Shown here in pieces: positions 7,891 through 59,106 of a DNA stretch of 64,000 bases. The stretch is from positions 4,960,001 to 5,024,000 of the forward strand of contig NZ_CP133671.1 of assembly GCF_031326345.1 (NCBI RefSeq). Reading direction: 5' to 3'. The position numbers and the translations under genes are program-made. This DNA comes from Aureispira sp. CCB-E. Its GTDB lineage: Bacteria > Bacteroidota > Bacteroidia > Chitinophagales > Saprospiraceae. Position 1 is the first letter of the stretch, and each line of letters begins with the position of its first letter. The notes under the pieces were generated by a model. That model searched no databases. It saw only the letters and a program-made list of their open reading frames with translations, and had not been told where the DNA came from.

Positions 7891-8027
7891 TAGTAGTTCG
7901 TTGATTATTCCCTGCGGTCATGAGGTCGCAAGCTTAGTTACCTGCGGTGCTACTTCGTGGTAGCTCCCTGCGGTCATGAGCTCGCACAGCTCGGTTCGCT
8001 GCTACTGCGTGGTTTCAACGAACTATT
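7891..8027. repeat. Dispersed inverted-repeat element, short class
   Basis: It starts with tagtagttcgttga and ends with tcaacgaactatt, so the termini are inverted copies of each other (AGTTCGTTGA/TCAACGAACT). The interior carries two copies of ccctgcggtcatgag.tcgc and of the ctgctact.cgtgg words found in the other elements. No ORF. It sits about 35 bp upstream of the 6758-7855 gene. Confidence 0.85.
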
Positions 8028-8111
8028 GCAAGTTACTAGGCAACAATTATTTTAAGTAATTCTTTAACATAAATATATGTAGCTCCACGATATAGTTTGG
8101 TACGTTTCTTT

Positions 8112-8780
8112 TTATTGCTCAAAAGCAAATTGGACAATATTAGCCCCCATTTGAAGTGCTTTGGTACGCATTTCTTCGGTATCGTTGTGCACTTCTTGAT
8201 CTTCCCATCCATCACCTAAATCTGTTTCATAACTATAATAACAAACCACTCTACCTTCCCATATCAAAGCAAATCCTTGTGCGGGTTTGCCATCATGTTT
8301 ATGAATTTTAGGTATTCCCGTTTTAAATTCAAACGTCTTGTGATAAATTTCGTGCGTAAAAGGTAGCTCTACCCAATCCAATTCAGGAAAGACTTGTTTC
8401 ATTGCGATACGAACAAAAGGATCCATACCATAATTATCATCAATATGCAAAAAGCCCCCAGACTGTAAGTACAATCTCAAATTTTCTGCATCAGCATCCG
8501 AAAAAACGACGTTTCCATGCCCAGTCATGTGCATAAAAGCATAGTTAAAAATCTCTGCACTTCCCACTTCAACAGTTTCATAATTAGGATCAATATTCGT
8601 GTGCAATTTTTCATTGCAAAATTTCGCTAAGTTAGGCAAAGCGGTTGGATTGGAATACCAGTCCCCTCCTCCGTTGTATTTTAATAAACCAAACTTTAGT
8701 GCAGGAGCTTCCTCCATCGGTTTAAATGAAAAAGAAACACCTATGGCGATCATGATTACCAATAAGCTTATATATTTCAT
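8112..8780 (-). CDS. DUF4159 domain-containing secreted protein
   Basis: 222 residues. The N-terminus (MKYISLLVIMIAIGVSFSF) is a signal peptide or anchor. The rest matches the DUF4159 pattern: KYNGGGDWY near 35, the MHMTGHGNVVFS segment near 85, then LRLYLQSGGFLHIDDNYG near 105-122, ELPFTHEIYH, and a closing ALIWEGRVVCYYSYETDLGDGWED. The family has a glutamine-amidotransferase-like fold and is widespread in Bacteroidota next to MoxR/von Willebrand-type membrane genes, none of which are present here. Its biochemical role is unknown. Transcribed alone, downstream of def on the same strand. Confidence 0.86.
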   Translation of the reverse strand: MKYISLLVIMIAIGVSFSFKPMEEAPALKFGLLKYNGGGDWYSNPTALPNLAKFCNEKLHTNIDPNYETVEVGSAEIFNYAFMHMTGHGNVVFSDADAENLRLYLQSGGFLHIDDNYGMDPFVRIAMKQVFPELDWVELPFTHEIYHKTFEFKTGIPKIHKHDGKPAQGFALIWEGRVVCYYSYETDLGDGWEDQEVHNDTEEMRTKALQMGANIVQFAFEQ

Positions 8781-8912
8781 ATTCTATATTTTTAGTCGTT
8801 CTCTAATTATCTATATGCTGTTTTATTGTTTCAACAAACTATTGTATTCTAGTTCTTTAGCAATTTCGCCCTCAATGCTCTACAAAAAGCATTCAAATAA
8901 TTCCTAAACTAA

Positions 8913-8951
8913 AAAATCTTAGCAACAATTTGTGTTTATTACTAAGATTTT
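8913..8951 (-). terminator. Terminator after def
   Basis: A 10-bp stem (aaaatcttag/ctaagatttt, arms 8913-8922 and 8942-8951), followed on the minus strand by a T-run. It lies 27 bp past the def stop. Confidence 0.7.
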
Positions 8952-8977
8952 AATTTTTTTCTAACAGAGTTATTATT

Positions 8978-9544
8978 TTATTTTTTGGCATAAACCAATT
9001 TATAATCTGCTTGAATTTGTCCTTTCTGAATTTTATCCAAGCGCTTTTTCACAAAACGCTTTTTTAAAGGTTTCAACAAATCTACAAATAAAATGCCCTC
9101 CAAGTGATCGTATTCATGTTGAATAACACGCGCTGTAATTCCATCAAAAATTTTATCTTGCAATTCAAAATTGGCATCGTAATATTCAATTCTCACTTTG
9201 GGTTTTCTAGAAACGTTCCCACGCACATCAGGTATACTTAGGCAACCTTCTTCGTATTCCCATTTTTTGCCAGACTCATCCAAAATGATTGGATTGATAA
9301 AAACTTCTTTAATAAATTCCTCTGCTTCCTCTTCTCTATCATCGGTATCCAACTGCTCCGTGTCTACCAAAAACAAGCGAATGTTACGACCAATTTGAGG
9401 TGCTGCCAAGCCCATTCCTTTAGAATGATACATTGTTTCAAACATATCTTCTAATAATTTTTCTAAATCTGGGTAATTTTCATCAATTTCCTCTGTTTCT
9501 TTTCTTAAAATAGGGTGACCGTAAGCGTATATTGGTAATTTCAT
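8978..9544 (-). CDS. def: Peptide deformylase
   Basis: 188 residues, normal length. It removes the formyl group from the N-terminal methionine of new proteins in the cytoplasm. All three metal/active-site motifs are present: GMGLAAPQ near 43-50, EEGCLSIP near 97-104 (metal-binding Cys) and QHEYDH near 141-146 (two metal His and the catalytic Glu). The insert TDDREEEAEEFI between motifs 1 and 2 is usual for Bacteroidota enzymes. Followed by a terminator; the nearest upstream gene is divergent, so it appears monocistronic. Confidence 0.96.
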   Translation of the reverse strand: MKLPIYAYGHPILRKETEEIDENYPDLEKLLEDMFETMYHSKGMGLAAPQIGRNIRLFLVDTEQLDTDDREEEAEEFIKEVFINPIILDESGKKWEYEEGCLSIPDVRGNVSRKPKVRIEYYDANFELQDKIFDGITARVIQHEYDHLEGILFVDLLKPLKKRFVKKRLDKIQKGQIQADYKLVYAKK

Positions 9545-9935
9545 TTTTTTGTACTAATTTTCTAGAAAGAATAACATTATTTTGGGAATCTTGTTTTTTA
9601 CAACGTCCAAAATAGACTGCAAATATAAGAACATTTTTGTTAGTGACAATTTGTCCATTAATTATTCCATCAAAACAAAAGATAAGTTATAAAAATAAGA
9701 GACTTAGACGAGGTACAAAGAAACAGTTCATAAAGTACCACATAGTAGTAACTAAGTAAGTGGGCAGAAAAAAATATAGCTAAAAAATAGACTTATTTTT
9801 AGTGCTAATCGAAGAGAAACAGTGCAGCTTTAGCGGGCTAAAACAAAATGCTTCGATGAAGAGTAGTGCAAAAAGAAGGTTATTTTTATATAATTTTTTC
9901 TGAGCGATTACTTATGCTAAACAAAACGAACATTT
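9545..9935. other. Intergenic region between def and a divergent gene
   Basis: About 390 bp, AT-rich and without a convincing ORF. It must contain the promoters of two divergent genes. I see no strong repeat or hairpin and no confident -7/-33 pair. Confidence 0.5.
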
Positions 9936-10406
9936 ATGATAAAATCACACAATATTACAGCTATTATTCAAAGTACATCGAAGGGAGGTGCTTATATTGA
10001 AATCCCCTTTGATGTAGAAGAAGCTTTTGGTGCAAAGCGACCTAAAGTAAGTGTACTTTTTGAAGGGCAAGAACCCTATAGGGGTACACTCTCTCGAATG
10101 GGAACAGTTAATCACATTCTAATTGTTAGAAAAGACATTCGAAACAAACTCAATAAGGAAGTTGGTGATCATATACAAGCCTCAATATCACTAGACACTG
10201 CTCCTAGAGTGGTAGAAGTTCCTCCTGAACTACAAGAAGCATTTGCAAAAGCTCCAAAAGCAGCGGCTTTTTATCAACAACTTTCCTATACTTGCCAAAA
10301 AGAATACGCCAACTATATCAATCAGGCTAAACGAGCAACAACCAAAGAACGACGCGCCTTAAAAACTATAGAATTATTAAATAAAGAAATAAAAACTCCT
10401 TTCTAG
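9936..10406 (+). CDS. DUF1905/YdeI-type (OmpD-associated-like) protein
   Basis: 156 residues. Residues about 1-90 form a small beta-barrel DUF1905 domain (GGAYIEIPFDVEEAFG, then RGTLSRMG and the closing GDHIQASISLD). Residues about 95-156 are a helical YdeI/OmdA-like region with the pattern VEVPPELQEAF.KAPKAAAF followed by KEYANYINQAKRATTKERR, typical of 'bacteriocin-protection' YdeI/OmpD-associated proteins. Cytoplasmic; the molecular role is poorly known. The next gene, rluD-like, starts 38 bp later but has its own probable -7 box in that gap. Confidence 0.85.
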   Translation: MIKSHNITAIIQSTSKGGAYIEIPFDVEEAFGAKRPKVSVLFEGQEPYRGTLSRMGTVNHILIVRKDIRNKLNKEVGDHIQASISLDTAPRVVEVPPELQEAFAKAPKAAAFYQQLSYTCQKEYANYINQAKRATTKERRALKTIELLNKEIKTPF

Positions 10407-10429
10407 GTTTAGTAGTCGACTGAAATGCG

Positions 10430-10437
10430 TATCTTTG
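10430..10437 (+). promoter_or_regulatory. Probable -7 box of the rluD-like gene
   Basis: TATCTTTG followed by C matches the Bacteroidota -7 consensus TAnnTTTG. The -33 element is not clear. If used, transcription would begin around 10441-10443, only a few bases before the ATG at 10445, making the mRNA essentially leaderless. Confidence 0.45.
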
Positions 10438-10444
10438 CAAGATT

Positions 10445-11473: not shown

Positions 11474-11484
11474 CTCTTTTAGTA

Positions 11485-11713
11485 AATAGTAGTTCGTTGA
11501 TTAGCTCCCTGCGGTCGTGAGATCGCTATCGCTTAGTTGTTTACTTTTTTACCAAAAAGATAAAAAAGCACATTTATATTAGTTTGATAATCATTTTTTT
11601 TAACACAAAACACAACAAAGACATAACCTATTGATTATCAACTGCGCAGCACTCATGCAATAAACTAATAAAGTTTAGCTGCGCTGCTACTCCGTGGTTT
11701 CAACGAACTATTG
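11485..11713. repeat. Dispersed inverted-repeat element, long class (mosaic)
   Basis: It begins aatagtagttcgttga and ends ttcaacgaactattga. The interior holds the ctccctgcggtcgtgag module, the ccaaaaagataaaaaagcac module, an inner inverted repeat built on gtttgataatca/tgattatcaa, the ctgcgcagcactca module and gctgcgctgctact.cgtgg. It has no ORF and fills most of the gap between the rluD-like and FKBP genes. Confidence 0.87.
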
Positions 11714-11806
11714 AGTAAACCCACATTTGGCAAATCATGTGGTAGCATTAAATAACTAAAATTAATAGATGACCATTTAACTGACCAAAGAATCAAATAA
11801 ATTATT

Positions 11807-12265: not shown

Positions 12266-12304
12266 GTTGATGCTTATTTAAAAATATTACTCCGTTAATT
12301 TTTT

Positions 12305-12347
12305 AAAATGCCTAGGTTCTTTGTGATAAGAGCAGCCTAGGCATTTT
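12305..12347. terminator. Terminator after the FKBP gene
   Basis: A 12-bp stem (aaaatgcctagg/cctaggcatttt, arms 12305-12316 and 12336-12347) followed by a T-run reaching 12353. It also lies just past the end of the convergent 12377-12754 gene, so it may act in both directions. Confidence 0.88.
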
Positions 12348-12376
12348 TTTTTTACTAGAGTCCTTTTTGACACCAC

Positions 12377-12754: not shown

Positions 12755-12876
12755 TGTTCTATATTTAGTATTAAATTCTAGCTTCGTTAGGTCTAATTTT
12801 TAACGAAGTACTGTTAAATAGAACAATGATAAGGGATCATTTGGTCAAATAAATTGACTTGAGTTAAGAACGAAAA

Positions 12877-13449: not shown

Positions 13450-13460
13450 AGTATCTAAGT

Positions 13461-16375: not shown

Positions 16376-19300
16376 CTATGGATTAAAATCTTTGATAATT
16401 TTCATCGCAGCGGCGTGTCGATCGTTTAAATCTTTGGCAGGAATTGTCATTAAAAGTGCTGCTGCTGTTTTCCAATATCCCTTTCGGGCAATTTCTAGCG
16501 CATAATCCTTCATCCCATATTTTCGATTAGCTGGCGTCTGCTTTTTAAACATTTTATAGGATGCTTCTAACAATTCCAAATCTAAATATAGCTTTTGCAA
16601 TTCACTAGCAGAATAACGATCATCTGCCTTACTTTGATTAGCCAATGCATTGGCTTTTTCCAATAAGTTATTCGCTTGATCTTCCTTGCCCAATCGACTG
16701 GCAGCCTTCGATAATTCAATACAGAACTTTATCGTTTCTTGAACAACCATCTCCTCTTTTGTCACCAAATCTATAGCTTGATTCAAAATTTGCAGTTGCA
16801 CCTCGGTGTTATCTGCTGGGCATTCTAACAAACCAACCAAGTAAAGTACTCGGTTACGAACATCGCTTATTTTTTCTGAAGTTAACAACCCATCATCAAC
16901 CAAACCAAGATTAGATTTTGTTCTTCCCAAATCCTCATAATAACGATCTTTATAATAAGCATTGGTCGTTGTTGTATAATTTAGAATACTTTCCTTAGCT
17001 TTTTCAGGATTGATATAACTCATCAACTTTAAGTACTCCATTACGCTACCATCGTATCCTTTGGAAGCTTCCATTTTTGTTAACAAATAATCCGTCCCCA
17101 ACTCTTTCTCACCAACTTCTATATATTTTTGAATCAGCAAAGCTTCACAATGGCTCGTGCTCAACCCTGGAAATTTCTCCATCCAAGCAATCGCTTCTTG
17201 ATACCGTTTTTGTTCTAATAGCGCTTCAAATCCTTTATCTAGCAAGTCAAATTCATCAATCTTGCCACATTTCTGAATCCCCAAATCAAAATATTCCATT
17301 GCCAAATCTAAATGCCCCAAATCCATTAATAACAAAATAAATTGTACTTGATAGGAACTAAACCATCCCTCGTTCCAAGGGCCATTCGACATAACATCCA
17401 TTGCCTTTTCATGTTGATGGCACAGAAGATAACTAGTCGCCAAGTGGGTATATTTTTCAAAGGTATTCGATTCCTTTTCTATTTTTTGATACGATAGGTC
17501 AAAATATGTTTTGGATGTTTCGCTTAAACCTAACAAAGCTGCGGCGGCTGCCAATGGTGCATAAACAAAGGTAGCAGCCCAATCATTTCGATCTTTTTCA
17601 GGCATATTTTCTAGCGCATTGACACCCTTTTCAAATGCTTCTTTTGCCAAATCAAGCACCCCGTTTTGAGCCAAATCAACAGCTACAAAACCTAAATTCG
17701 ACACCAACACATAAGGTTCGGAACTGGCAGCAGCAATTTTAATAGCTTTTTTATACGCACCTATCTTAATCAATTGACGAGCAATAATACCATTGTGTTT
17801 GCTAATGTGATAATGCCAACCTCCTTTCAATTCCGCCAAGGATTTTTGGTGTACTTGTACAATATCCAACAAGGATCCTCCTTTAGAAAAAGAGATGCCC
17901 GCCTTTTTCGGTTTGGTTTTCTTAGGAGCTTTTATAAGTGCTTTTTCTTTACTTGTCAATCCCAGCTTAGGATCTTCTTTAGCTTCATATAGCGTTGTAT
18001 ACAGATGCTTTTTACTGCCCCAACAATACGACCAAGCATATTTATTTTCATATACATACGCCAAATGTTGATCTAACCCATCTACATTCAAATCATTGCC
18101 GATTACGACTCCTGTTGGAACAACCGCAATCCACTGCTTCCGCCCCTTATCATCTAAAGGGTAATTAGGAACCACATCGTATTTAATCGAGAAATCTTTT
18201 TTCCCTACTTGAAGCGGACTCGCTTGATCATACAATGCATTATAAGCCTTCGCTTGCTGATCCTTATCACAAGATTGAATACACGTCCCATCTTCCTTGT
18301 AAAAAGAAATCCCATAGGCACCTACGACTACAATTGTAGCCCCCCAATAAATTCCTTCAGCAGTAACCACAAACTCACTAAGCAAAGATTGTGTTTCGAT
18401 GGACCAGACTTGTGCTTTCCCTGACTCTAATAATACCACAAGTTTGTCACCTTCTTGATTGAATTGAACACTTCTAAGTTCTGAATAAGATGCTGCTTCT
18501 TTGAGTACATTATCATTAAGAGTCCATCGAGCAATTTGCTTTTCTGCCTCATAAACCAACAATGTTTTTTCGCCATAGACCACACACCGTTGAGCTTCTT
18601 CTGAAAACTGTATTCCTTTAACACTCATCAAGCAACTAGTTTTAGAAACAATCTCCCCTGTTTGGATAGTTGCCCAAACCAATTTGTCAGAGTCTTGATA
18701 AACCATTCTATCATTGCACGCACTAAATCCAACAGGTTGGCTGATAGATTTCAACCAAACAACTTGTTTGGAATCCAAATCTACCCCATATACCTGATTT
18801 TGGTAGTTATAACCATAAGCAAACCGACCATCAGGGGTCGTTCTACACCATTTGTAAGGTTGCAAATCGTTTCCATTAAGCAAGGGCTTGATATTGGCTG
18901 CTAATTTCATAGACATCCACTTGGCATTATCTTCATACGTGTTCTGCCTTTTGTTGGAGGTTATTGCTAGAGGAATTTCAGAATTGTGCCAACAACTAAT
19001 GACAAAAGCATCTTTGTTTCCTTGCCATGTCCATGCTGGGGGTCTTGACCAACCATTTGTTACTGATGCCGATGCCAAAGGGCTAGAAGCATCTGAAAAA
19101 GGGTTTAATTTTGCTACAGTATTGGTATTTAAACCCGCACCAATGTATCGACTGCTGGCACTCCATTGAAGCATATGAGGATAATCAGGCCAACCAATAC
19201 CACCATAAGACTCTTTTAACAAATTCACACAACGCCCAGTAGCCGTTTCCCATATTTGTACCGTTCCATCTTCTTCATAATTATCTCCTACCCAAGTTCC

Positions 19301-21637
19301 AACTGCCAAATATTGCCCATCTGGACTCATAGCAAAACTGTTTATTTTTTCTTCGTGTGCAAAAGAGTGTCTCAGCAAAGCACCAGACTCCAACATACGT
19401 TCTGTAAAATATTCGTGTGCAGCTCCAACACCATCCTCTATTGCTATCTTTTCTAGTGCACTTCGTAACCTTAAGAATAACGGAACATCCAACGTTTTCC
19501 AATCCATAGATTTCAAAAAACGAAACACTTCTTTTTCTGTTGGAGTGCCATTCAAAATACTAGTATTTATCTCTAGTGTACTGCTTGCTTTTTTTTCTTC
19601 TTGTTTAAGTTGTAACAACGAAGATAAATCAGTCTTCAAAATTTCTAACTCCTCTGTTGCCGCATATAAGATTCCTGTTCGACTAAGTGTAGCGGTTGTA
19701 ATCGGTTGTTTTAAATTGGCAATTTGCCTCAAAAGTTGTTGTTCTACCTCCAATACATACACATTCCCTAGTTTATCAACGATTAGCAATTCTGATAGGT
19801 AATCTTTTTTAAGAACTGTCTTAATCGTATCCAATGCCAGATCAAAAAACAAGGAAGTTGTAGATTTTCCATCCCATAATCTAATTTCATTATCCGCAAT
19901 AGACAATACTAGAGAACAATTAGGGAACGTATGTAATACTTGAATTCCCTTACTATGCGCATTTTTAATCACCAAAGAAGCTTTCTTTTCCCCCATCGTC
20001 CAAAATTCCAGTGTTTTACCTTGCACCACAACAAACTCATCATCTTTCCAGAGATAAGCCTTTACATTTTTGCTTGGCTTAAAAGCCTGTAATTCTCTCC
20101 CCGAGTGGCTCCAAAGTTTGGTCATTTTCTTTTCTCTCGAAAAATAACCTGAAGTAGAGAGCAATCGCCGTTCATCAAAATCAATACTTTCAAACAAACC
20201 AGATAAAATAGGTGTTTCTTCTCCCGTTTTTAGATCGAACCAAGCATAAGTACCTCCATAATTTTGGTATCGACGCTTGAGCAAAAGTTTGCCCGATGTT
20301 TTTTCAGCGACAAAAGATTCTATATCCAACGCATGTTTTACGGAACCATCTGCCTCAAAACAATGCGCTATTTTCCCTGCCATTGTCCACAATTCATTTT
20401 GTGCATCGTCAATATACAACGTACGACACGCGGCTGTCAATCCTTTCGATACCAACAAAGGTTCACCCGATTCCAAACCAATTGGTTGCAACCTATTTCC
20501 CGCAGACTGATACAATGTTCCCGACCCTCCAAAAGCAATGTTTGCCCAAAGTGCTTCATTCGTTCTTACCCAAGCAACCGAAGCTTCTTCTACATTCCAT
20601 AAAATAATATCTACTCCTGCCACTCGAATAGCCAACCACTTATCATCTCTCGATACCTCAAAAGACAAAACGCCCCCACTACTAGAATAATTCACCAATT
20701 CTTGGAGCAAATTGCCTTTTTCGACTTCCCATAGCTGCGCTTTTGTTTTATAATTAGCCGCTGAAACAGTATATAAAATTGTCCCTGTAGCGTTGAACTT
20801 TACTGCTATTCCATTCGATCCATGCGCTTTGGCTTCAAACTGAGCCACTTCATTGCCATCCAAATCCATGATCAATATTTGCTCTAAACTTTCTCGACCA
20901 CCGTATTCAATGAACGCAATTCGTTGACTAACCGCACTAACCACCGTTCCACTAGAATTATTATGATTTTGCGGAGAAACTAAAGTTTTTAGTGTATTAA
21001 ATTCATAATCTAGCAACATAAATCCCCCCGTATACCCCAAATAAATGTAGTTCTCATCCACATCTATATCACCAAAATAGCCTTTTATCGGTATTTCAAT
21101 TAGCTGTTCTCGAATAAGCTCTAGTTTGTGTTGAGCACAATCAAAAAGATAGATATGGTTATCTCGATAAGTATCTTTCTTATAAATCAACAATTGTTCA
21201 GAATTAGGCACTGCTTGGACAAAAAAGGAACCAAAAAAATGCGTACTTTCTGCAAATTCATATTGGTCTAACAACGTTCCATCTAGTTGCCACAAGTAAA
21301 AATGATTCCTACTGGCTGTTACTACAACACCTTTTTGTTCATAATAATAGATATGCTCAACTTCCGCTTCGTGCTTAAAAATCGTATCGTTAAAAGGAGT
21401 ATTTTCTAAATCTAAAGCAATAATAGGCATAGCAGGGTCTTCATAGCCACTCTTCTTTTTTTTAATAATTTCTCTTTTAAAAGCTAGCAATGCTTTTTCT
21501 TCCGTTTTGAGGTCTTTCTTAGTCAAGCGACCTTTCCCTCCAATTTTTCCATTTTGAATGGTTAGAAATTGTCCATCTAATTCTATTTCCCAAAACTTAG
21601 AAGATTTTCCTTGCTTATTTTCTAGATATTGTTTCAT
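16376..21637 (-). CDS. Giant WGR-domain, beta-propeller and TPR protein
   Basis: 1,753 residues, no signal peptide, probably cytoplasmic. Residues 1-70 form a WGR domain (KFWEIELDGQFLTIQNGKIG then GKGRLTKKD and KKKKSGYEDP), a module known from PARP proteins and MolR-like bacterial proteins that can bind nucleic acid ends. Residues about 75-1300 are WD40-like propeller repeats (recurring DG..YLAVGTW, VQIWETATGR, EIRLWDG, AQLWEVEKGNLL), enough for two or three propellers. Residues about 1330-1750 are helical TPR-like repeats (YLLCHQHEKAMDVM, YQEAIAWMEKFPGL, LEKANALANQSK). It is divergent from a second helical-repeat gene. The function is unknown; the build suggests a scaffold or sensor. Confidence 0.85.
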   Translation of the reverse strand: MKQYLENKQGKSSKFWEIELDGQFLTIQNGKIGGKGRLTKKDLKTEEKALLAFKREIIKKKKSGYEDPAMPIIALDLENTPFNDTIFKHEAEVEHIYYYEQKGVVVTASRNHFYLWQLDGTLLDQYEFAESTHFFGSFFVQAVPNSEQLLIYKKDTYRDNHIYLFDCAQHKLELIREQLIEIPIKGYFGDIDVDENYIYLGYTGGFMLLDYEFNTLKTLVSPQNHNNSSGTVVSAVSQRIAFIEYGGRESLEQILIMDLDGNEVAQFEAKAHGSNGIAVKFNATGTILYTVSAANYKTKAQLWEVEKGNLLQELVNYSSSGGVLSFEVSRDDKWLAIRVAGVDIILWNVEEASVAWVRTNEALWANIAFGGSGTLYQSAGNRLQPIGLESGEPLLVSKGLTAACRTLYIDDAQNELWTMAGKIAHCFEADGSVKHALDIESFVAEKTSGKLLLKRRYQNYGGTYAWFDLKTGEETPILSGLFESIDFDERRLLSTSGYFSREKKMTKLWSHSGRELQAFKPSKNVKAYLWKDDEFVVVQGKTLEFWTMGEKKASLVIKNAHSKGIQVLHTFPNCSLVLSIADNEIRLWDGKSTTSLFFDLALDTIKTVLKKDYLSELLIVDKLGNVYVLEVEQQLLRQIANLKQPITTATLSRTGILYAATEELEILKTDLSSLLQLKQEEKKASSTLEINTSILNGTPTEKEVFRFLKSMDWKTLDVPLFLRLRSALEKIAIEDGVGAAHEYFTERMLESGALLRHSFAHEEKINSFAMSPDGQYLAVGTWVGDNYEEDGTVQIWETATGRCVNLLKESYGGIGWPDYPHMLQWSASSRYIGAGLNTNTVAKLNPFSDASSPLASASVTNGWSRPPAWTWQGNKDAFVISCWHNSEIPLAITSNKRQNTYEDNAKWMSMKLAANIKPLLNGNDLQPYKWCRTTPDGRFAYGYNYQNQVYGVDLDSKQVVWLKSISQPVGFSACNDRMVYQDSDKLVWATIQTGEIVSKTSCLMSVKGIQFSEEAQRCVVYGEKTLLVYEAEKQIARWTLNDNVLKEAASYSELRSVQFNQEGDKLVVLLESGKAQVWSIETQSLLSEFVVTAEGIYWGATIVVVGAYGISFYKEDGTCIQSCDKDQQAKAYNALYDQASPLQVGKKDFSIKYDVVPNYPLDDKGRKQWIAVVPTGVVIGNDLNVDGLDQHLAYVYENKYAWSYCWGSKKHLYTTLYEAKEDPKLGLTSKEKALIKAPKKTKPKKAGISFSKGGSLLDIVQVHQKSLAELKGGWHYHISKHNGIIARQLIKIGAYKKAIKIAAASSEPYVLVSNLGFVAVDLAQNGVLDLAKEAFEKGVNALENMPEKDRNDWAATFVYAPLAAAAALLGLSETSKTYFDLSYQKIEKESNTFEKYTHLATSYLLCHQHEKAMDVMSNGPWNEGWFSSYQVQFILLLMDLGHLDLAMEYFDLGIQKCGKIDEFDLLDKGFEALLEQKRYQEAIAWMEKFPGLSTSHCEALLIQKYIEVGEKELGTDYLLTKMEASKGYDGSVMEYLKLMSYINPEKAKESILNYTTTTNAYYKDRYYEDLGRTKSNLGLVDDGLLTSEKISDVRNRVLYLVGLLECPADNTEVQLQILNQAIDLVTKEEMVVQETIKFCIELSKAASRLGKEDQANNLLEKANALANQSKADDRYSASELQKLYLDLELLEASYKMFKKQTPANRKYGMKDYALEIARKGYWKTAAALLMTIPAKDLNDRHAAAMKIIKDFNP

Positions 21638-21774: not shown

Positions 21775-21889
21775 TTCGAAGCCCCATGCAACACCACGTA
21801 GTAGCAGCGTATAACTAAAAACTCAGTGCTCATGAAGTACCACGTAGTAGCAGCGAAGCTAAACTAATACGATTTTCCAACGGAGTAAT
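21775..21889. repeat. Dispersed repeat fragment plus AACGGAGTAAT terminal motif
   Basis: It holds two copies of ccacgtagtagcagcg and the words gtgctcatgaagtacc shared with the other elements, and ends tccaacggagtaatg. It lies within the 522-bp gap (21638-22159) between the WGR gene and its divergent neighbour; the rest of that gap is AT-rich and must hold both promoters. Confidence 0.7.
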
Positions 21890-25955: not shown

Positions 25956-26999
25956 CTATTTATTGGATGCTGTTCCTAACCATCGCAAAACATTATCATG
26001 CCAGATCTCCTCTTGCTCATTGATCGTAATCATTCCATGAGCAACGGCTTCATCCAAAACTTTTCCTGGATAAGAATTCGGTACATCTTCCATTTCTCCT
26101 AAAGGATAAGGATCATCAATCCCAGCAATGATTTGAGCAACACCACAACGATTTTTTAATAACTGAAAGGTATATACATCATGTACCAAGGTATCAAAAA
26201 ATAAATTGGGATGCCCTACCGAAGCCTGAGGGTGTTGCGTATTTGGAAACAAATCGGGTCTTCCATTAAATCCCTGTACTCTTCGTCCTAGATTGGCTTG
26301 TCCTAACATACAACCGTGTGCAAAACAAGTTCTAATGTTGGGAAAACGATTGGGAATATCTTTTAAGGTATACAAATGCAAAGTATCGGCTGTTTGCGCC
26401 ATCATCCACACCAAATGAAAACGCCAATAAGTATCTTCCAACTGAATCATCTTTTGACCATCATAAGGATGTATTTCAATCGCCAATCCATAATGATTGG
26501 CCAAATCATAAATTGGAAGAACACTATCATCCGCAACAGAAGTCCATTTTCCTTCCGCGTTAATAAAATGTGTCGGCAAGCATAATACGGACATTCCCAA
26601 TGTTTCTACACAACGCTCTATTTCTGCCAAAGCAAAGTCGATGTATCTAGGCTGTACAACAAAACCACAGGTCAATCTATTGGGATGATTCCGTTGCACC
26701 TCCGCATTAAAATCATTCTGAAATCGTATGGCATCTTTTGTATCTTCTAATGTCAGACCATTACAATATAACTGCGACAGGTTCAAAATTACAGTTCGCT
26801 CTATCTCATTTTTATCCATCCACTCCAACTTTTCTTTAAGAAAGAAGCTTGGTGCTGTAATCGGTCTAGCCCAATTTCCTTGTCGCATAAATTTTTTATC
26901 CTCATCAATCCAAAAAAGCTTTTTAGCTTTCATAAATTGTGGAATTTGGTGGGGTTCTGGCAATAAATGCCCATGCCCATTTATTTTCGATTTTTTCAT
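25956..26999 (-). CDS. Amidohydrolase-family protein (ACMSD-like, amidohydrolase_2)
   Basis: 347 residues, no signal. The N-terminal NGHGHLLPEP gives the HxH metal site near residues 9-11. Further metal or active-site candidates are EIHPYDG near 175, CFAHGCMLG near 228 and GIDDPYPLGEM near 290. The order resembles amidohydrolase_2 TIM-barrel enzymes such as the ACMSD/4-oxalomesaconate group; the substrate is not assignable. This is the intact copy. Its first 91 codons are duplicated 998 bp to the right in a broken copy. It is divergent from kdsB, sharing the promoter region 27000-27163. Confidence 0.85.
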   Translation of the reverse strand: MKKSKINGHGHLLPEPHQIPQFMKAKKLFWIDEDKKFMRQGNWARPITAPSFFLKEKLEWMDKNEIERTVILNLSQLYCNGLTLEDTKDAIRFQNDFNAEVQRNHPNRLTCGFVVQPRYIDFALAEIERCVETLGMSVLCLPTHFINAEGKWTSVADDSVLPIYDLANHYGLAIEIHPYDGQKMIQLEDTYWRFHLVWMMAQTADTLHLYTLKDIPNRFPNIRTCFAHGCMLGQANLGRRVQGFNGRPDLFPNTQHPQASVGHPNLFFDTLVHDVYTFQLLKNRCGVAQIIAGIDDPYPLGEMEDVPNSYPGKVLDEAVAHGMITINEQEEIWHDNVLRWLGTASNK

Positions 27000-27723
27000 T
27001 TTATATTGGTATCAATTGTTAGGTAAAAATCGCATTTTTCAATACTTTCCACAAGATAAATATTGTATCAAGCTTTTTAATAATAGTTCGTTGAAAAACT
27101 TTATTAGTTATCACAAACAAAACAAATAGCATAAAATTACAACGGAGTAAAATTTTATTATAAATGAAAAAATCAATTGGAATTATTCCTGCTCGCTATG
27201 CCTCTACTCGATTTCCAGGAAAACCTTTGATAGATATAGCGGGAAAAAGTATGATTCAACGTGTTTATGAGCAAGCGATGCAATCCAATTTGGATAAAGT
27301 AATTGTTGCTACAGATGACGCTCGGATTTACCAAGCTGTACAAAACTTTGGTGGTACTGTAGTTATGACTGGACTTCATGAAAACGGTACATCAAGGTGC
27401 ATAGAAGCCTACTTAAAAGAGACAACTACTTACGACATATTGGTCAACATCCAAGGGGATGAGCCATTTATTGCACCTAGCCAAATCAATAGTATTCTCT
27501 CTGCCTTTAACGTTCCCGATACGCCTATTGCCACCTTAGCCAAACAAATTGACAATTTAGACGATTTGCTCAGTCCTAATGTTGTAAAAGTTGTTTTTTC
27601 TACTCCTATTGCAGCAGGTATTCACAACGCTCTATACTTTAGCCGTAGTCCAATTCCCTTTGTTCGAGACTTGCCTCAAGAGGCATGGCTTACACAGCAA
27701 CATTTCTACAAACACATTGGTTT
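26726..27723. repeat. 998-bp tandem duplication, left copy
   Basis: It contains the first 91 codons of the intact amidohydrolase gene, the divergent promoter region and the first ~187 codons of kdsB. Every base I compared matches the right copy, except A26763 versus G27761. The left junction lies inside the amidohydrolase, at cg|tatggcatc. Confidence 0.95.
27082..27107. repeat. Solo end of the dispersed element in the kdsB/amidohydrolase promoter region
   Basis: The run aatagttcgttgaaaaactt followed by tattag is the exact reverse complement of the right end of the element at 47167-47310. A duplicate lies at 28080-28105. It is therefore a fragment or half-element between two divergent genes and may contribute to their promoters. 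Confidence 0.7.
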
Positions 27724-27748
27724 GTATGGCATCTTTTGTATCTTCTAA
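27164..27748 (+). pseudogene. Truncated copy of kdsB (left copy of the tandem duplication)
   Basis: 194 codons. Codons 1-188 are identical to the intact kdsB at 28162. After HIGLY the frame runs into antisense amidohydrolase sequence, adds GIFCIF and stops. The missing 66 residues include the DTPEDLNKAL segment, which carries the second metal-binding Asp, and the dimerisation region, so activity is unlikely. It keeps a full copy of the promoter region, so it may still be transcribed. Confidence 0.9.
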
Positions 27749-27997
27749 TGTCAGACCATTGCAATATAACTGCGACAGGTTCAAAATTACAGTTCGCTCT
27801 ATCTCATTTTTATCCATCCACTCCAACTTTTCTTTAAGAAAGAAGCTTGGTGCTGTAATCGGTCTAGCCCAATTTCCTTGTCGCATAAATTTTTTATCCT
27901 CATCAATCCAAAAAAGCTTTTTAGCTTTCATAAATTGTGGAATTTGGTGGGGTTCTGGCAATAAATGCCCATGCCCATTTATTTTCGATTTTTTCAT
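27632..27997 (-). pseudogene. Truncated copy of the amidohydrolase gene
   Basis: 121 codons. Codons 1-91 equal the intact amidohydrolase, with one synonymous TGT to TGC change in a Cys codon. It then crosses the duplication junction and reads 30 codons of antisense kdsB before a stop. Most of the TIM barrel is lost, so it cannot be active. It overlaps the broken kdsB copy head-on across the junction. Confidence 0.9.
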
Positions 27998-28721
27998 TTT
28001 ATATTGGTATCAATTGTTAGGTAAAAATCGCATTTTTCAATACTTTCCACAAGATAAATATTGTATCAAGCTTTTTAATAATAGTTCGTTGAAAAACTTT
28101 ATTAGTTATCACAAACAAAACAAATAGCATAAAATTACAACGGAGTAAAATTTTATTATAAATGAAAAAATCAATTGGAATTATTCCTGCTCGCTATGCC
28201 TCTACTCGATTTCCAGGAAAACCTTTGATAGATATAGCGGGAAAAAGTATGATTCAACGTGTTTATGAGCAAGCGATGCAATCCAATTTGGATAAAGTAA
28301 TTGTTGCTACAGATGACGCTCGGATTTACCAAGCTGTACAAAACTTTGGTGGTACTGTAGTTATGACTGGACTTCATGAAAACGGTACATCAAGGTGCAT
28401 AGAAGCCTACTTAAAAGAGACAACTACTTACGACATATTGGTCAACATCCAAGGGGATGAGCCATTTATTGCACCTAGCCAAATCAATAGTATTCTCTCT
28501 GCCTTTAACGTTCCCGATACGCCTATTGCCACCTTAGCCAAACAAATTGACAATTTAGACGATTTGCTCAGTCCTAATGTTGTAAAAGTTGTTTTTTCTA
28601 CTCCTATTGCAGCAGGTATTCACAACGCTCTATACTTTAGCCGTAGTCCAATTCCCTTTGTTCGAGACTTGCCTCAAGAGGCATGGCTTACACAGCAACA
28701 TTTCTACAAACACATTGGTTT
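27724..28721. repeat. 998-bp tandem duplication, right copy
   Basis: A direct repeat of 26726-27723. The junction reads ggttt|gtatggcatc. The kdsB parent reads ggtttatatgcc and the amidohydrolase parent reads aatcgtatggc. Only the four bases TATG are common to both parents at the join, which suggests a microhomology-mediated event rather than recombination between long repeats. Confidence 0.95.
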
Positions 28722-30964: not shown

Positions 30965-31180
30965 TTAGTAGTTAGCTGCGCTGCTACTTCGTGGTCGTTG
31001 ATTAGTTCGCTACGCTCATGAGGGCACAAGCTTAGTTTTTTACTTCTTACCAAAAAGATAAAAAATCACATTTATATTATTTTGATAATCAGAATTTTAA
31101 CACAAGATGCAATAAATTTACAACTTATTGATTATCAACTGCGCAGCACTCACGAAGTACCACGAAGTATTGGTCTATTG
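30965..31180. repeat. Dispersed inverted-repeat element, long class
   Basis: It carries tagtagttagctgcgctgct, acttcgtggtcgttgattag, the ccaaaaagataaaaaatcac module, the gataatca...tgattatcaa inner inverted repeat, ctgcgcagcactcacgaagt and accacgaagtattg. The right terminus is degenerate. It lies between the GT39 and DUF5686 genes. Confidence 0.82.
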
Positions 31181-47012: not shown

Positions 47013-47166
47013 GCATTACTTTACAAAACACGCTAAACTAACTATCAGACGCATAAACAAACCAACAGCGACCTTATGAACTCAGCTAAGTATTATGCTA
47101 ATATAACTCAATTTCAAATCTCTGTTGCTTCGATACTCAAGATTTTTTTGCACTGTTAATTATAAT

Positions 47167-47310
47167 TAGTAGTTCGTTGATTTTTTTCTTTTTACCAAAA
47201 AGATAAAAAAGCACATTTATATTAGTTTGATAATCAAAACTTTAACACAAAACACAACAAAAGCACAACTTGTTGATTATCAAACTAATAAAGTTTTTCA
47301 ACGAACTATT
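47167..47310. repeat. Dispersed inverted-repeat element, long class (cleanest copy)
   Basis: 144 bp. Outer termini tagtagttcgttga and tcaacgaactatt. The inner inverted repeat attagtttgataatcaa (47221-47237) pairs with ttgattatcaaactaat (47273-47289), perfect over 17 bp. No ORF. A smaller fragment (tagtagttagttgtgctgct at 47347-47366) lies downstream. The rest of the 47013-47649 gap is AT-rich with no gene. Confidence 0.9.
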
Positions 47311-47649
47311 GTTATAATAATTATTACAAATAATTTTTACAAGAATAGTAGTTAGTTGTGCTGCTACTTTATTAAAAAAAGAGGTAAAAACAAGAATTGT
47401 TGTGCCTTTTAATAATGTAATAAGGGAAAGTAGCGACAACAAGTACGTGCCCCTAAAAAAGTATTAGAGAATAATACGCTTACTTTTAAAAGGGGTAAGG
47501 TGTTCGAGATAAGAAATTAATGGATGAGTATTTTTCTTTAAAAAAAAGAAATTTAAGCATCAAAAATAATAGAATCACATACAACAACAAGTGTTGAAAT
47601 GGATACAAAATACCCTATTATTAAGATTAAACTACCATCGCTACTTCTA

Positions 47650-51126: not shown

Positions 51127-51297
51127 ATTACTCCGTAAAAAACCATATCAATTTGATTATCAAAAAACACACCTTCCCCTTACCTTTTAAAAAACTGATA
51201 ATAAACCATACAGAACTCACAAAGTATTAATAATACAATCACCTATTACTTCGTGGTTTCAACGACCACATAGTAGCAGCGCAGCCAACTATTGCTA
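51127..51297. repeat. Composite extragenic element between osmC and bshB1
   Basis: It begins attactccgt, holds tttgattatcaaa and gaactcacaaagtatta, then tacttcgtggtttcaacgac followed by cacatagtagcagcgcagcc, and ends aactattg at the bshB1 stop codon. It mixes both terminal motifs found in this window. Confidence 0.65.
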
Positions 51298-52011
51298 TTT
51301 TAAATCGAAAAGGTTATTGACGCCAATCGTTCGAGCAACAGTGAATCCCTCTCCGTACAAGAAACCAGCAGGACGACCATACATAGCATTTTTACCTTTG
51401 ATAAACTCTAAGAAACTCTTTCCTGAAATAGGTGTATCAGGCTCCTTAGATTCTGGATCGTAAAACTGTGATTTATATGCTTGAATCACTTCCATTTTTT
51501 GATCTATGTAAGGGCTTATATCCACAACAAAATCAGGCGTTAAATTATGATCTTGGATGTAGTGATAAACTGCTTTGGGTCTCCAAGCCTCTTGTGGTTT
51601 ATCTTCCCATTCTGTTTCAATTCGGCGCAAACCTGCATAAAAACAGGCATCCGCTGTTAATTTAGCGGCACGACCATGGTCTGGATGGCGATCAGAGACC
51701 GCATTAGCCAAGACAATTTCAGGGCGCATCAAACGAATAATTTCAACAATTTTGAGCATGTTTTCTTTCGTGTATTGAAAAAAGCCATCTGCCATTTCTA
51801 AATTTCCTCGCACGGCTGCTCCTATTAATTTAGACGCTATTGCGGCCTCTTTCAAACGAATTTCAGCACTTCCTCTTGTCCCTAACTCTCCACACGTAAG
51901 ATCCAATAATCCGACAGTTTTTCCCATTGCAATATGATGCAGTAAAGTTCCGCAACAAGAGAGTTCAATATCATCAGGATGCACTCCAATTGCCAAGATA
52001 TCTATTTTCAT
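51295..52011 (-). CDS. bshB1: Bacillithiol biosynthesis deacetylase BshB1
   Basis: 238 residues. LmbE-like metal-dependent deacetylase that removes the acetyl group from GlcNAc-malate on the way to bacillithiol. The metal site GVHPDD is at residues 9-14. LTCGELGTRGSAEIRLKEA near 38-56 is the family signature (T.GELGTRG), and the second site VSDRHPDHGRAA near 105 provides His ligands. bshA and bshC are not in this window. Its right neighbour on the same strand is the T9SS cargo gene, with about 90 bp between; osmC lies downstream. Confidence 0.95.
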   Translation of the reverse strand: MKIDILAIGVHPDDIELSCCGTLLHHIAMGKTVGLLDLTCGELGTRGSAEIRLKEAAIASKLIGAAVRGNLEMADGFFQYTKENMLKIVEIIRLMRPEIVLANAVSDRHPDHGRAAKLTADACFYAGLRRIETEWEDKPQEAWRPKAVYHYIQDHNLTPDFVVDISPYIDQKMEVIQAYKSQFYDPESKEPDTPISGKSFLEFIKGKNAMYGRPAGFLYGEGFTVARTIGVNNLFDLK

Positions 52012-54058: not shown

Positions 54059-54081
54059 AAATTTTTGTTCTATTTTTGAAT

Positions 54082-54248
54082 TAGTAGTTCGTTGATTTTT
54101 TACTTTTTTACCAAAAAGATAAAAAAGCACATTTATATTAGTTTGATAATCAAAATTTTAACATAAAACGCAATAAAATCGCAACTTACTGATTATCAAA
54201 CTAATAAAGTTTAGCTGCGCTGCTACTGCGTGGTTTCAATGAACTATT
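54082..54248. repeat. Dispersed inverted-repeat element, long class
   Basis: Termini tagtagttcgttga and ttcaatgaactatt (one mismatch to the consensus). Inner inverted repeat attagtttgataatcaa / tgattatcaaactaataaag. It also has the ccaaaaagataaaaaagcac and gctgcgctgctactgcgtgg modules. It lies 24 bp upstream of the sorting-domain gene. Confidence 0.88.
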
Positions 54249-54256
54249 GTGAATAT

Positions 54257-54333
54257 TAGTAGTTCGTTAATTACTTCATGCAATCGCAGGTTTAGCTAGC
54301 GACGCTGCTACTATGTAGTTTTAACGAACTATT
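54257..54333. repeat. Dispersed inverted-repeat element, short class, in tandem
   Basis: 77 bp with termini tagtagttcgttaa and ttaacgaactatt. It starts 8 bp after the neighbouring long element. The words gaactattgtgaatatta follow both elements, suggesting a duplicated insertion site or a tandem copying event. Confidence 0.85.
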
Positions 54334-54492
54334 GTGAATATTATAGCCTACCAATTAACCCGCTATACTTGTACGGTTAGGTTGTGTTTTAGTAAACTAA
54401 TGTGAATAGTAATACTCCTATTGAAGTTAGTAGAATATCTGCTTATTATGAACTTCCTCATTGAGTTCGCCAAATTTACAAAGAAGTTCGCC

Positions 54493-54643: not shown

Positions 54644-54659
54644 GATTTTTTTGTGGCTC

Positions 54660-55394: not shown

Positions 55395-55566
55395 TATTCC
55401 TTGTCTATTATAGGTTATTAAATTTGTTCTTTGAAATCTCTGTCTAAAATTTCATTCTCATTTTAGACAGTTTTTTTGGAACTTGTATGTTTTACTAAAA
55501 TAATAATACTTAGTTGCGAGTGTTACTGTGATTTTCTAACAAAGTAATACTAAAAGCAAGCCAAAC

Positions 55567-56094: not shown

Positions 56095-56120
56095 AATCCC
56101 ATAGTTATAGTTATTTTCAA

Positions 56121-56237
56121 TAGTAGTTAGCTTTGTTACTCCCTACGGTCGTGAGCTCGCATAGCTCGGTTCGCTGCTACTTCGTGGTCGTTGATTACCT
56201 ACTAAAAATCAAGCCAATACGTTTCTCCAACGAAGTA
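56121..56237. repeat. Dispersed-element copy, short class, with AACGAAGTAAT end
   Basis: tagtagttagctttgttact, ccctacggtcgtgagctcgc, atagctcggttcgctgctac and ttcgtggtcgttgatta, ending ccaacgaagtaatg. It lies between folB and the peptidase gene. Confidence 0.78.
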
Positions 56238-56273
56238 ATGTAAAACAGCAAATCACTCTACAAATCTGGTAAT

Positions 56274-58412
56274 CTATTTCAATTTATCATCAATATAAGT
56301 CAATACTTTATTCATCAAATGAACTCGATCTTTGCCCCTTACATTATGTGGGTGCATTGGATAAGGAAAGAAATCCATCAAAATGCCATTATCAACAAAA
56401 GCTTTGACCAAACTCAAATTATGCTGCATTACAACAACATCATCTACCGTTCCATGAATAAGCAATAAATCTCCTTTTAAGTTTTGTACATGATTCTTTA
56501 GTTGTGTTTCTTTGTACCCTTCAGGATTTTCTTTGGGCATATCCATATAACGCTCTCCATACATTACCTCATAATAATTCCAATCCGTAACAGGTCCACC
56601 AGCAACTCCTACTTTAAAGACATCTGGATGCTTTAACATCAGGGAAGTTGTCATAAAACCACCATACGACCAGCCATGCACCGCCATTCTATCCGTATCA
56701 GCATAAGCCAAAGATTTTAGATAGTCGACTCCAACCAACTGATCTTCCATTTCATGCTTGCTCAACTGTCTGTGAATGACATTTTCAAATTCTAACCCTC
56801 TATTGGCTGATCCTCTATTGTCCAAGGTAAATACCAAATACCCCTTGTTAGCTGCATAATACATCCATAGTCGAGCATTCCCCAGCCAACTATTGGTCAC
56901 CATTTGAGCATGAGGTCCTCCATAAACATAGACAATAACAGGATATTTTTTAGATGGATCAAAATTAGCTGGTTTTATCAAACGTGCTTGCAATGGTGTG
57001 CCATCTTTCGCTTTAAGACTAACCAATTCTGGGCTAGATATTTGATAATCTTTATAAGGATTTTCAGCTGTATGCAAGGTATTTTTTACTTTTCCTTTTA
57101 AAGTAACAATACGTGTTACATGAGGTGTTTTAATATCAGAATAATCATCTATTAAATATTTTCCAGAGCTACTCAAAGAAAAGCTATGCACACCATCTTC
57201 TTTGACCAAACGCTTAGAAGGCTTTCCACCTTCCAATGGCGCACAATAAACAGTTGTATTCAAGCCACTTTCGTCCGTGCCTTGCACCAAAATCATTTTT
57301 TTAGTATCATCCAAACCCAACACTTTTAACGTTACCCATTTGCCTTTGGTCACTTGTCCTAGGTATTTCCCTTCTGTATTATAACGATGCAAATGCATAA
57401 AGCCATCTCTTTCTGACCACCACAAAAATTCTTTGTTATTGCCAGGAATAAACCAAACTGGATGCTCTGGTTCTACGTATTTATCATGTTTTTCTTCAAA
57501 AAGTGTTTTAACTAAATTACCTGTTTTGACATCATATTGATTTAACCAAACGTGATTTTGTTCTCTATTAACAACAGCTACGTAAACATACTTATTCTCA
57601 GGTCCCCATCCCAAATTGGTCAAATATTGATCTTTAGGACCATCTACTTTTAGATAAATTGTTTTTTTAGTCGCTACATTAAAAATTCCAACTCGAGCAT
57701 ACTCGCTTTTTTGCCCCGCCATAGGATATTTAATTGTTTTTAAAGCTCCTGGTGTTGTTGTAATATCTAGTAGAGGATAATCTGCTACATCTGTTTCATC
57801 TTTTTGATAAAAAGCCAAGTGCGACCCATCAGGAGACCAAAAGGTACCTTTCCCAATTCCAAATTCGTATCGAGCAATCGCTTGACCACTAACAATATTA
57901 GGATCTTCAAAAGCAGTTACTTCCAATTCACCTCCATTTTTATCTTGAACATATAAATTATGCGCTTTGGTATAGGCTATATTTTGAGATTTTTTATGAT
58001 AATCAATGTTGGCTTCTTTCGGCATACGGACGACTAATTTTCGACTAATATTGTCCCCTTCTAATGCCATCCAAAATCGTTGTCCTCCATAAACAAAACT
58101 AAACTCTTGCTCACTCTCCCATTGAATAAAAGGCATTCTAGATAGTTCTTCACCAAAAGCCTTATTTAGCGCTTTCAAATCAAACAGTTCCTGAGCTGTC
58201 TTAGCTCCTACTTTTTGCATCATAATCTGCTTGCTATCCTTAGAGTGGAATGTAACAACATCTTGTCCTTTTCTCCATGTCAAATTAGCAACACGTGTCG
58301 GATAAAACTGTCTCCACTGCCCCAAAACAGCATCTTCCAAAGTCAATTCTTTGTCTTGTGCCGTTATTCCTAAAGACACACCTAGTAAAATGATTAATAC
58401 GATTAGTTTCAT
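56274..58412 (-). CDS. S9-family peptidase, dipeptidyl-peptidase IV type
   Basis: 712 residues. Signal peptide MKLIVLIILLGVSLGITAQ. Residues about 35-480 form the eight-bladed DPP-IV propeller (for example SPDGSHLAFYQKDETDV and SSSGKYLIDDYSD). Residues about 490-712 form the alpha/beta hydrolase: VYGGPHAQMV, the nucleophile GWSYGGFMT near 568, GTVDDVV (Asp) near 665 and HPHNVRG (His) near 698. It removes N-terminal dipeptides, favouring X-Pro, in the periplasm. Length and triad are normal. Monocistronic. Confidence 0.94.
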   Translation of the reverse strand: MKLIVLIILLGVSLGITAQDKELTLEDAVLGQWRQFYPTRVANLTWRKGQDVVTFHSKDSKQIMMQKVGAKTAQELFDLKALNKAFGEELSRMPFIQWESEQEFSFVYGGQRFWMALEGDNISRKLVVRMPKEANIDYHKKSQNIAYTKAHNLYVQDKNGGELEVTAFEDPNIVSGQAIARYEFGIGKGTFWSPDGSHLAFYQKDETDVADYPLLDITTTPGALKTIKYPMAGQKSEYARVGIFNVATKKTIYLKVDGPKDQYLTNLGWGPENKYVYVAVVNREQNHVWLNQYDVKTGNLVKTLFEEKHDKYVEPEHPVWFIPGNNKEFLWWSERDGFMHLHRYNTEGKYLGQVTKGKWVTLKVLGLDDTKKMILVQGTDESGLNTTVYCAPLEGGKPSKRLVKEDGVHSFSLSSSGKYLIDDYSDIKTPHVTRIVTLKGKVKNTLHTAENPYKDYQISSPELVSLKAKDGTPLQARLIKPANFDPSKKYPVIVYVYGGPHAQMVTNSWLGNARLWMYYAANKGYLVFTLDNRGSANRGLEFENVIHRQLSKHEMEDQLVGVDYLKSLAYADTDRMAVHGWSYGGFMTTSLMLKHPDVFKVGVAGGPVTDWNYYEVMYGERYMDMPKENPEGYKETQLKNHVQNLKGDLLLIHGTVDDVVVMQHNLSLVKAFVDNGILMDFFPYPMHPHNVRGKDRVHLMNKVLTYIDDKLK

Positions 58413-58744
58413 GCTAATATTTTCAAATTAGTACTCCAAAAAATCTTAATTTTACAACTTGGGAACAAAAATACACTCCTAACAATGAAACTGTTTATGA
58501 AGTTGATTTTTTATCTGTTACTTATTGCTTTCCAATTATCTTTGGAGTATTGTTCATATGTAATTAGTTAAATAATATTCTACCTGCGGCTTGATTCTGC
58601 CCTCCTAAAAGCTAAAGATACAATAAACCACAAAACATCCTATATTTTAAGTCCTTCTCCTATTTTTACCTTTCATTTTTTATGAACACAATAAAGGTTA
58701 TTTAAGTAGATTTTGTATGAGCAATAAAAATGACCGTTAACGGA

Positions 58745-58839
58745 GATTAGACAATGATTTCTGCGCAGCTTTGCGTCCGAACTAGCTTGGCGAAGCATGC
58801 AAGCTAGTTCAGCAAACAAGCAGCAAAAATCATCTAATC
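58745..58839. repeat. Large imperfect palindrome (95 bp)
   Basis: Outer arms gattag/ctaatc and atgattt/aaatcat, inner perfect 11-bp arms gaactagcttg (58779-58789) and caagctagttc (58800-58810) around a 10-base loop. It would fold into one long hairpin. It shares ctgcgcag with the other elements but has its own ends. No ORF. It lies in the 830-bp gap between the peptidase and the 59243 gene. Confidence 0.75.
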
Positions 58840-58854
58840 GTAGTGTTGGGTCTT

Positions 58855-58932
58855 GATTACCTTCGGTGCTACTTCGTGGTTTGCTTCTTTTATCAAGAAC
58901 CCGAAGGCTCACGAAGTAAAAGAAGGACAGAG
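58855..58932. repeat. Dispersed-element fragment with nested inverted repeats
   Basis: attaccttcggtgctacttc and gtggtttgcttcttttatc, then ccgaaggctcacgaagtaaa and agaaggac. ccttcgg/ccgaagg, tacttcgtg/cacgaagta and cttctttta/aaaagaag are interleaved inverted pairs, so two alternative hairpins are possible. Confidence 0.6.
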
Positions 58933-59009
58933 GAGTAAACTATTCCCTACTGTTAAAAACCAAAAGATATAGTAACTATTCCCATAACTTTTTACATGCA
59001 TAACCTTTA

Positions 59010-59106
59010 ATAGTTAGCTTAGTTCCCCCTGCGATCATGAGCCAGCAAGCTGGGTTTCTTACTCCCTATGGTCGTGAGCTCGCTATGCTCGGTTCGCTGC
59101 TACTAA
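59010..59106. repeat. Dispersed-element copy, short class
   Basis: atagttagcttagttccccc, tgcgatcatgagccagcaag, tactccctatggtcgtgagc and tcgctatgctcggttcgctg. It has two copies of the cc..(c/g)gtcgtgag module, as in the element at 7891. Termini degenerate. Confidence 0.7.

Follow-up and report, generated by a model that had tools for sequence, protein, structure and literature searches.

Fifteen sites in a 64,000-nt stretch of the Aureispira sp. CCB-E chromosome (the whole of this stretch is called the window below) were listed in an initial annotation as sharing terminal and internal words, which raises the question of what kind of repeat they represent and whether it is mobile. A MITE or a large REP-type family was suggested there. 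We propose, with a probability of about 0.7, that these sites are built from two nested layers of non-autonomous mobile DNA, namely MITEs and much shorter cassettes of 20-36 nt.

The family of shared words was indeed real. AGTTCGTTGA with at most one mismatch was found 21 times in the window, as against a mean of 3.4 in 100 shuffles (sd 2.0, maximum 8), and TAGTTCGTTGA occurred 290 times in the genome as against 15 times for the pattern read backwards, so that the 10-mer ends exceed chance both in the window and genome-wide. The element has the ends TAGTAGTTCGTTGA / TCAACGAACTATTG; its short form runs from TAGTAG to CTATTG, is mostly 146 nt in size and, as had been claimed for every copy, has no coding capacity for a protein. 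Paired inverted ends (AGTTCGTTGATT-N95..125-TCAACGAACTATT) were present 28 times in the genome and 0 times in the reversed control. When positions 54080-54256 were compared with the CCB-E genome, at least 43 matches came from the 40 candidates scored among 586 found at first look; as only these 40 were scored, the true copy number exceeds 40. The fold of the window MITE at 47167 (positions 47168-47312) was a closed stem bearing two arms, with z = -7.9 for RNA and -7.3 for DNA. Words and cassettes of this MITE family recur in two other families, whose ends are ACTCCGTTGA and AAGTAATCGTTCA.

All 33 AGTTCGTTGA sites of a 460-kb genome block were located outside ORFs of at least 100 aa, although such ORFs cover 85% of the block. 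The claim that no gene is interrupted stood in the block, and in the window it stood for seven of nine sites, two being found in ORF calls. We take these two, by their position, to be the sites at 7895, within the first bases of the 6758-7921 ORF call, and at 27085, contained in a call (26728-27129) that is probably spurious. Gaps with MITE ends were tandem in 21 cases, divergent in 7, convergent in 6 and other in 1 (all gaps: 516/130/106), with no clear preference of the elements among gene orientations.

At the exact element boundary, 4-7 bp were common to both flanks in 69 of 117 flank pairs, while about 2.7 would be expected from shuffled flank pairs; the 117 pairs take in wrong pairings of nested ends, and 48 were without a match. 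The duplicated target was mostly 5-7 bp long (4, 5, 6 and 7 bp in 1, 14, 44 and 10 pairs, mode 6). The initial annotation had recommended a search for empty sites in sister strains, and these were found: the MITE at 47167 is absent from Aureispira sp. CCB-QB1, which has a single copy of the 7-bp target TTATAAT in its place. Conversely, MITE copies of CCB-QB1 absent from CCB-E were flanked by the duplications ATAAAAT, TAGTAA, ATATGT and TCCTAT(T), so precise empty sites exist in both directions. The assignment to MITEs is thus supported by inverted ends, target duplications, lack of coding capacity and strain-specific empty sites, and in its behaviour the element resembles a substrate of cut-and-paste transposition.

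Table 1. Positions of MITEs and cassettes in the window
Feature	Position	Strand	Remarks
MITE ends around cassette run	7891-8028	+	beta-type unit 7940-7961, core 8002-8012
MITE with three cassettes (alpha, gamma, beta)	11487-11713	+	both ends
Alpha cassette, 36 nt	11503-11538	+	different alpha version at the same place in CCB-QB1
Gamma cassette, 22 nt	11640-11661	-	absent from CCB-QB1
Beta cassette AGCTGCGCTGCTACTCCGTGGT	11677-11698	+	inside MITE 11487-11713
Cassette run	21785-21860	-	beta core 21794-21804, beta 21839-21860
MITE right-hand part (half copy)	27081-27109	-	repeated at 28079-28107
MITE, left end AGTT^CGTTGA split by beta 30974-30995	30969-31175	+	right part degraded; end approximate
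Cassette-free MITE, 145 nt	47167-47311	+	TTATAAT flanks 47160-47166 and 47312-47318; absent from CCB-QB1
MITE right end split by reversed beta-like unit	51260-51300	+	by eye; below ACTCCGT-type end at about 51127
MITE with beta 54213-54234	54082-54249	+	right end (54236-54245) has one mismatch
Second element, 78 nt, MITE ends (one mismatch each)	54257-54334	+	adjoins 54082 MITE; TGAATAT flanks
Left MITE end split by cassette run	56121-56195	+	beta core 56177-56187
Beta-type cassette ACCTTCGGTGCTACTTCGTGGT	58859-58880	+	outside any MITE; absent from CCB-QB1
Zeta cassette, 20 nt	58898-58917	-	absent from CCB-QB1
Cassette run between short AATAGTT / CTACTA ends	59010-59106	+	partly by eye

True inverted ends had been attributed to the best copies, and both ends were confirmed at five of the 15 listed sites (7891-8028, 11487-11713, 47167-47311, 54082-54249 and 54257-54334; Table 1). 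Eight others (2164, 21775, 37824, 49656, 51127, 56121, 58855 and 59010) had no intact end pair and were read by eye as cassette runs or as degraded or composite copies. The half MITE at 27082 was doubled at 28080 by a 998-bp tandem duplication. This duplication (26788-27785), single in CCB-QB1, adjoins two CTP_transf_3 genes. The window also encodes a protein of 1753 aa (16376-21637) in which a WGR domain at the N-terminus is combined with WD40-type repeats. Rfam gave one match at gathering scores, a tRNA.

The internal words were likewise truly shared, but many of them belong to separate units of 20-36 nt that come and go alone, both within MITEs and elsewhere. These cassettes comprise alpha (34-36 nt), beta (22), gamma (22), delta (26) and zeta (20). 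The best defined is beta, AGCTNCGCTGCTACTNCGTGGT (N free), with 20 fixed and two free positions; its core GCTACTNCGTGGT occurred 342 times in the genome as against once for the reversed control, and 30 of 32 cores in the 460-kb block were outside ORFs. The full beta was counted 196 times and TTAGCTNCGCTGCTACTNCGTGG 193 times, from which it follows that most full copies are preceded by TT. In 804 kb, all 49 exact beta-type copies followed TT. With up to three mismatches allowed, 89 copies were found in 1.204 Mb (none for the reversed control), of which 78 followed TT and 11 did not, the background frequency of TT being 9%. Alpha boundaries were CTTTTTT^ACC in three elements (34 nt) and GATT^ in three (34, 36 and 36 nt), while those of beta were AAAGTTT^TTCAACG, CAATAGTT^CGTTG inside an element end, and GATT^ACTTCG. 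Alpha had a 2-3 bp direct repeat at its flanks; beta had no clear target duplication, only a flanking repeat of about 1 bp.

Variation within the cassettes was not evenly distributed. Beta positions 5 and 16 were the most variable, followed by 2 and 8, which covaried (G-C 63, C-G 13, other 13), and the bases around the TNC of alpha were CC/GG in 13 and GC/GC in 11 copies. GNA loops in DNA are very stable, and both the 2/8 covariation and the alpha pairs would fit mini-hairpins whose loops are TNC, or GNA on the complementary strand. This must stay a conjecture, because 12 single-cassette strands folded no better than their shuffles, either as DNA or as RNA (24 folds, z = -0.65 to 1.69). A preference for hairpin loops as insertion sites was not seen: 14 of 39 distinct joints had a stem of at least 4, as compared with a fraction of 0.417 among random TT sites.

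We then turn to the two strains themselves. The 7.39-Mb CCB-E genome and the draft assembly of CCB-QB1 are about 99.5% identical, and twelve locus pairs aligned over their length showed 98.7 to 99.7% identity. In the two regions compared (384,461 aligned columns with 0.58% mismatch and 312,679 with 0.45%), 130 indels of at least 15 nt were detected. Three blocks that hold 85 of them were left out of the count, namely a coding region of variable sequence, an insertion resembling an IS and a block that only CCB-QB1 has. Among the 45 indels that remained, words of an element or cassette were present in 21 of 31 of 15-60 nt, in 9 of 11 of 61-300 nt and in one of three longer ones, the 998-bp duplication; random segments contained such a word in 51 of 6200 cases. 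Nineteen differences of cassette size were picked by eye for a test of their flanks, 12 being extra in CCB-E and 7 in CCB-QB1; two of them (CCB-QB1 39132 and CCB-E 265817) had no word by the strict rule. Among the strain differences, one event of 28 nt is better read as a 24-nt mini-element plus a 4-bp duplication. As single cassettes are present or absent between near-identical strains, very short DNA seems to be mobile. Two further differences were noticed along the way: a long coding region of CCB-QB1 contig 41 (about 52.4-56.2 kb) is strongly diverged from its CCB-E counterpart at about 3.90 Mb and looks, by eye, like a variable repeat-rich surface gene, and a 1240-bp insertion absent from CCB-QB1 lies outside the window, at about 83565 in window numbering (about 5.0436 Mb of contig C1 of CCB-E, G000).

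Could the MITEs alone be mobile, with the cassettes spread among their copies by homologous recombination (gene conversion)? Many cassettes do occupy the same places in MITEs. Moreover, the alpha block at 11503 differs as a whole between the strains, as if exchanged in place, with a few further differences in the element 11487-11713, and gene conversion is possible there. Mismatch in the ungapped 60-nt flanks of the events (25/1800; 8 of 38 flanks were omitted for gaps) was also above the 0.45-0.58% background, hence some cassette events may be conversions. As a general explanation, however, we regard this as improbable, since cassettes differ between the strains also at the non-MITE sites 58859 and 58898, are found in unrelated contexts in another genus (see below), and have unchanged flanks at several events; one element, for example, contains alpha and beta in CCB-E and neither in CCB-QB1, and the 104-nt interior between them is without a mismatch.

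The distribution of the two layers in other genomes was as follows. A scan of public genomes for the paired MITE ends gave 29 stretches, all from CCB-QB1 (the closest records were possibly excluded), and among 40 genomes, CCB-E included, the exact MITE end-pair pattern was found in CCB-E only. By BLAST, three of seven genomes of the same genus (G001, G003 and G006) had divergent copies, with identities of about 70-88% in the parts that matched. As for beta, GCTGCTACTNCGTGGT was present in 6 of 199 genomes of the family, i.e. in CCB-E (266 copies), in G149 of the same species (269), which is probably the same strain as CCB-QB1, and in four genomes of other genera (1-5 copies each). A 23-mer starting with TTAGCT occurred in 9 of 298 genomes of the order, including 29 sites in G337 (genus g7). 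The full AGCTNCGCTGCTACTNCGTGGT was found in one of 395 genomes of the phylum sample, CCB-E itself, and beta was without a match in viral contigs. Thirteen of the 29 G337 sites were read, all selected with TT in the pattern; the contexts were unlike those in Aureispira (for example an octamer array or a local repeat). At one of them (L195), a partial tRNA-Gly copy that covers the 3' part is interrupted by beta, the insertion being exactly 22 nt long, and the intact copy of this tRNA-Gly begins 69 nt ahead of the matching point. A further G337 copy (L190) does not follow TT. The three beta copies of G172, from another genus, are all on one contig, C6, and have Aureispira-like surroundings (L172, L199 and L200), for which transfer or misbinning are possible explanations.

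These data also bear on the alternative that the cassettes are old and only get lost, by precise deletion or slippage, so that the strain differences would all be losses. Two strains of the species were compared, which leaves the direction of events unpolarised, and the 2-3 bp repeats flanking alpha would suit such deletion. Nevertheless, we consider this slightly less probable still than conversion: the repeat flanking beta is only about 1 bp, the occurrence of one 22-mer in many unrelated contexts needs spreading at some time, and the split tRNA site of G337 has an unsplit counterpart. We infer that cassettes have been gained, not merely lost.

The search for the moving enzyme covered the Y1 (RAYT) profile PF01797, RVT_1 and the spans between end pairs, and no mover for either layer was found in the DNA read, nor was a transposase or RAYT with matching ends, for which the initial annotation had recommended to look. 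In 1.204 Mb, no parent transposase was recognized by eye in the five of seven spans between long end pairs that were examined; in the window, a Pfam scan of one such span returned DUF4159. Among the first 100 of the 290 end sites, the only two spaced like the ends of a transposon belonged to separate MITEs on either side of a gene. The sole RVT_1 match of the CCB-E genome (L176, 1003-2772, about 2.39 Mb of C1) had RT_UG19 as its best PADLOC model, looks like a UG19-type defence reverse transcriptase, and had no visible link to the cassettes. An insertion of 1.4 kb that CCB-QB1 lacks has an open frame of 458 codons, but its ends are not those of the MITE and it was rejected; by eye, we take it to be IS4-like.

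PF01797 had no match in CCB-E, CCB-QB1 or G149, and was present in two of the seven other genomes of the genus. An IS200/IS605-type single-strand (PATE-like) transposon is not supported on this ground, and neither is a REP/REPIN family with a RAYT, a Y1 tyrosine transposase, as its mover, with which the large REP-type family of the initial annotation would agree. The units are short, GC-rich, extragenic and of high copy number, and the complementary strand of beta has GTAG ahead of a small palindrome, which we take to be a REP-like motif; Y1 genes were also present in seven of eight carriers from other genera tested. However, they were present in all three non-carriers tested as well, so PF01797 does not track the carriers elsewhere, it is unmatched exactly where the copies are most numerous, and the 12 cassette strands folded showed no stable palindromic hairpin. 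We therefore hold a REP/REPIN origin to be very unlikely. Equally unlikely is retention of immobile cassettes for a function such as RNA or protein binding, for even though beta is strongly conserved at its fixed positions and covaries at positions 2 and 8, presence differs in both directions between near-identical strains and no gene orientation is clearly preferred.

The two-layer reading can be put as the following model. A transposase would cut and paste the MITE via its TAGTAGTTCGTTGA / CAATAGTTCGTTGA ends, generating a duplication of mostly 5-7 bp. Cassettes would be acquired whole and always the same way round, most often directly 3' of a run of T's, and the target would not be duplicated apart from one to a few ambiguous T's. 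The MITEs would serve as a frequent landing place, and a cassette lying between MITE ends would travel along. The cassette enzyme would act in trans, presumably reading the paired segments AGC-TNC-GCT and CTAC-TNC-GTGG (with GNA loops on the complement). More tentatively, and with less confidence than in the two layers as such, we suggest that the 22-bp beta (20 fixed and two free positions) and its 20-36 nt kin might be complete substrates of an undescribed trans-acting enzyme that, in several genera of a single family, inserts them 3' of TT and leaves no duplicated target. They would then belong to the smallest mobile units of DNA in bacteria, and the middle base of TNC, which is free (GNA on the complementary strand), could mark their recognition as single-stranded mini-hairpins.

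No description of the Aureispira repeat family turned up among the papers listed on Aureispira genomes (where no listed title concerns repeats), SDRs, Bacteroidetes MITEs, GNA loops, mitochondrial elements and Saprospira/Lewinella repeats, and four literal 15-mers matched no paper. Among known systems, MITEs in general resemble the outer layer in being short, with inverted ends, target duplication, no protein and empty sites, but here the cassettes inside the element vary independently and the parent transposase was not found. Y1 enzymes carry out single-strand transposition, whose outcome is similar to insertion 3' of TT without duplication; the difference lies in PF01797 being unmatched in both strains. 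The same difference applies to REPs/REPINs with RAYTs, which are likewise short extragenic units of high copy number (PMC3116915; see also PMC2817692 and PMC3733652). Mitochondrial hairpin-forming mobile elements, or GC clusters (see PMC2800124), are also short GC-rich units in AT-rich DNA, but the present cassettes reside in a bacterial chromosome and, singly, fold no better than shuffles.

The closest known kind for the cassettes appears to be the small dispersed repeats (SDR) of cyanobacteria, very small repeated elements that were reportedly described as mobile by Elhai et al. in 2008. SDRs also occur inside other repeats and tandem arrays, a location resembling that of beta in G337. To our knowledge, how units of 20-30 nt move has been an open question ever since. 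The two Aureispira strains, about 0.5% divergent and with clean single-unit empty sites, allow the process to be followed in one species and an enzyme to be sought; in the two regions compared, and with the three blocks left out, 30 of the 42 indels sized 15-300 nt contained an element or cassette word. As cited in PMC2884548 and PMC3116915, SDRs are about 20 nt long, dispersed and thought to be mobile. Beta, 22 nt long, dispersed and extragenic, matches this description, and the strain differences and the split tRNA copy point to mobility of single units here too. The likeness is one of description between different phyla, not of compared sequences. What distinguishes the present case is that single units come and go between near-identical strains, that several cassette types combine inside MITEs, and that one 22-mer is common to several genera.
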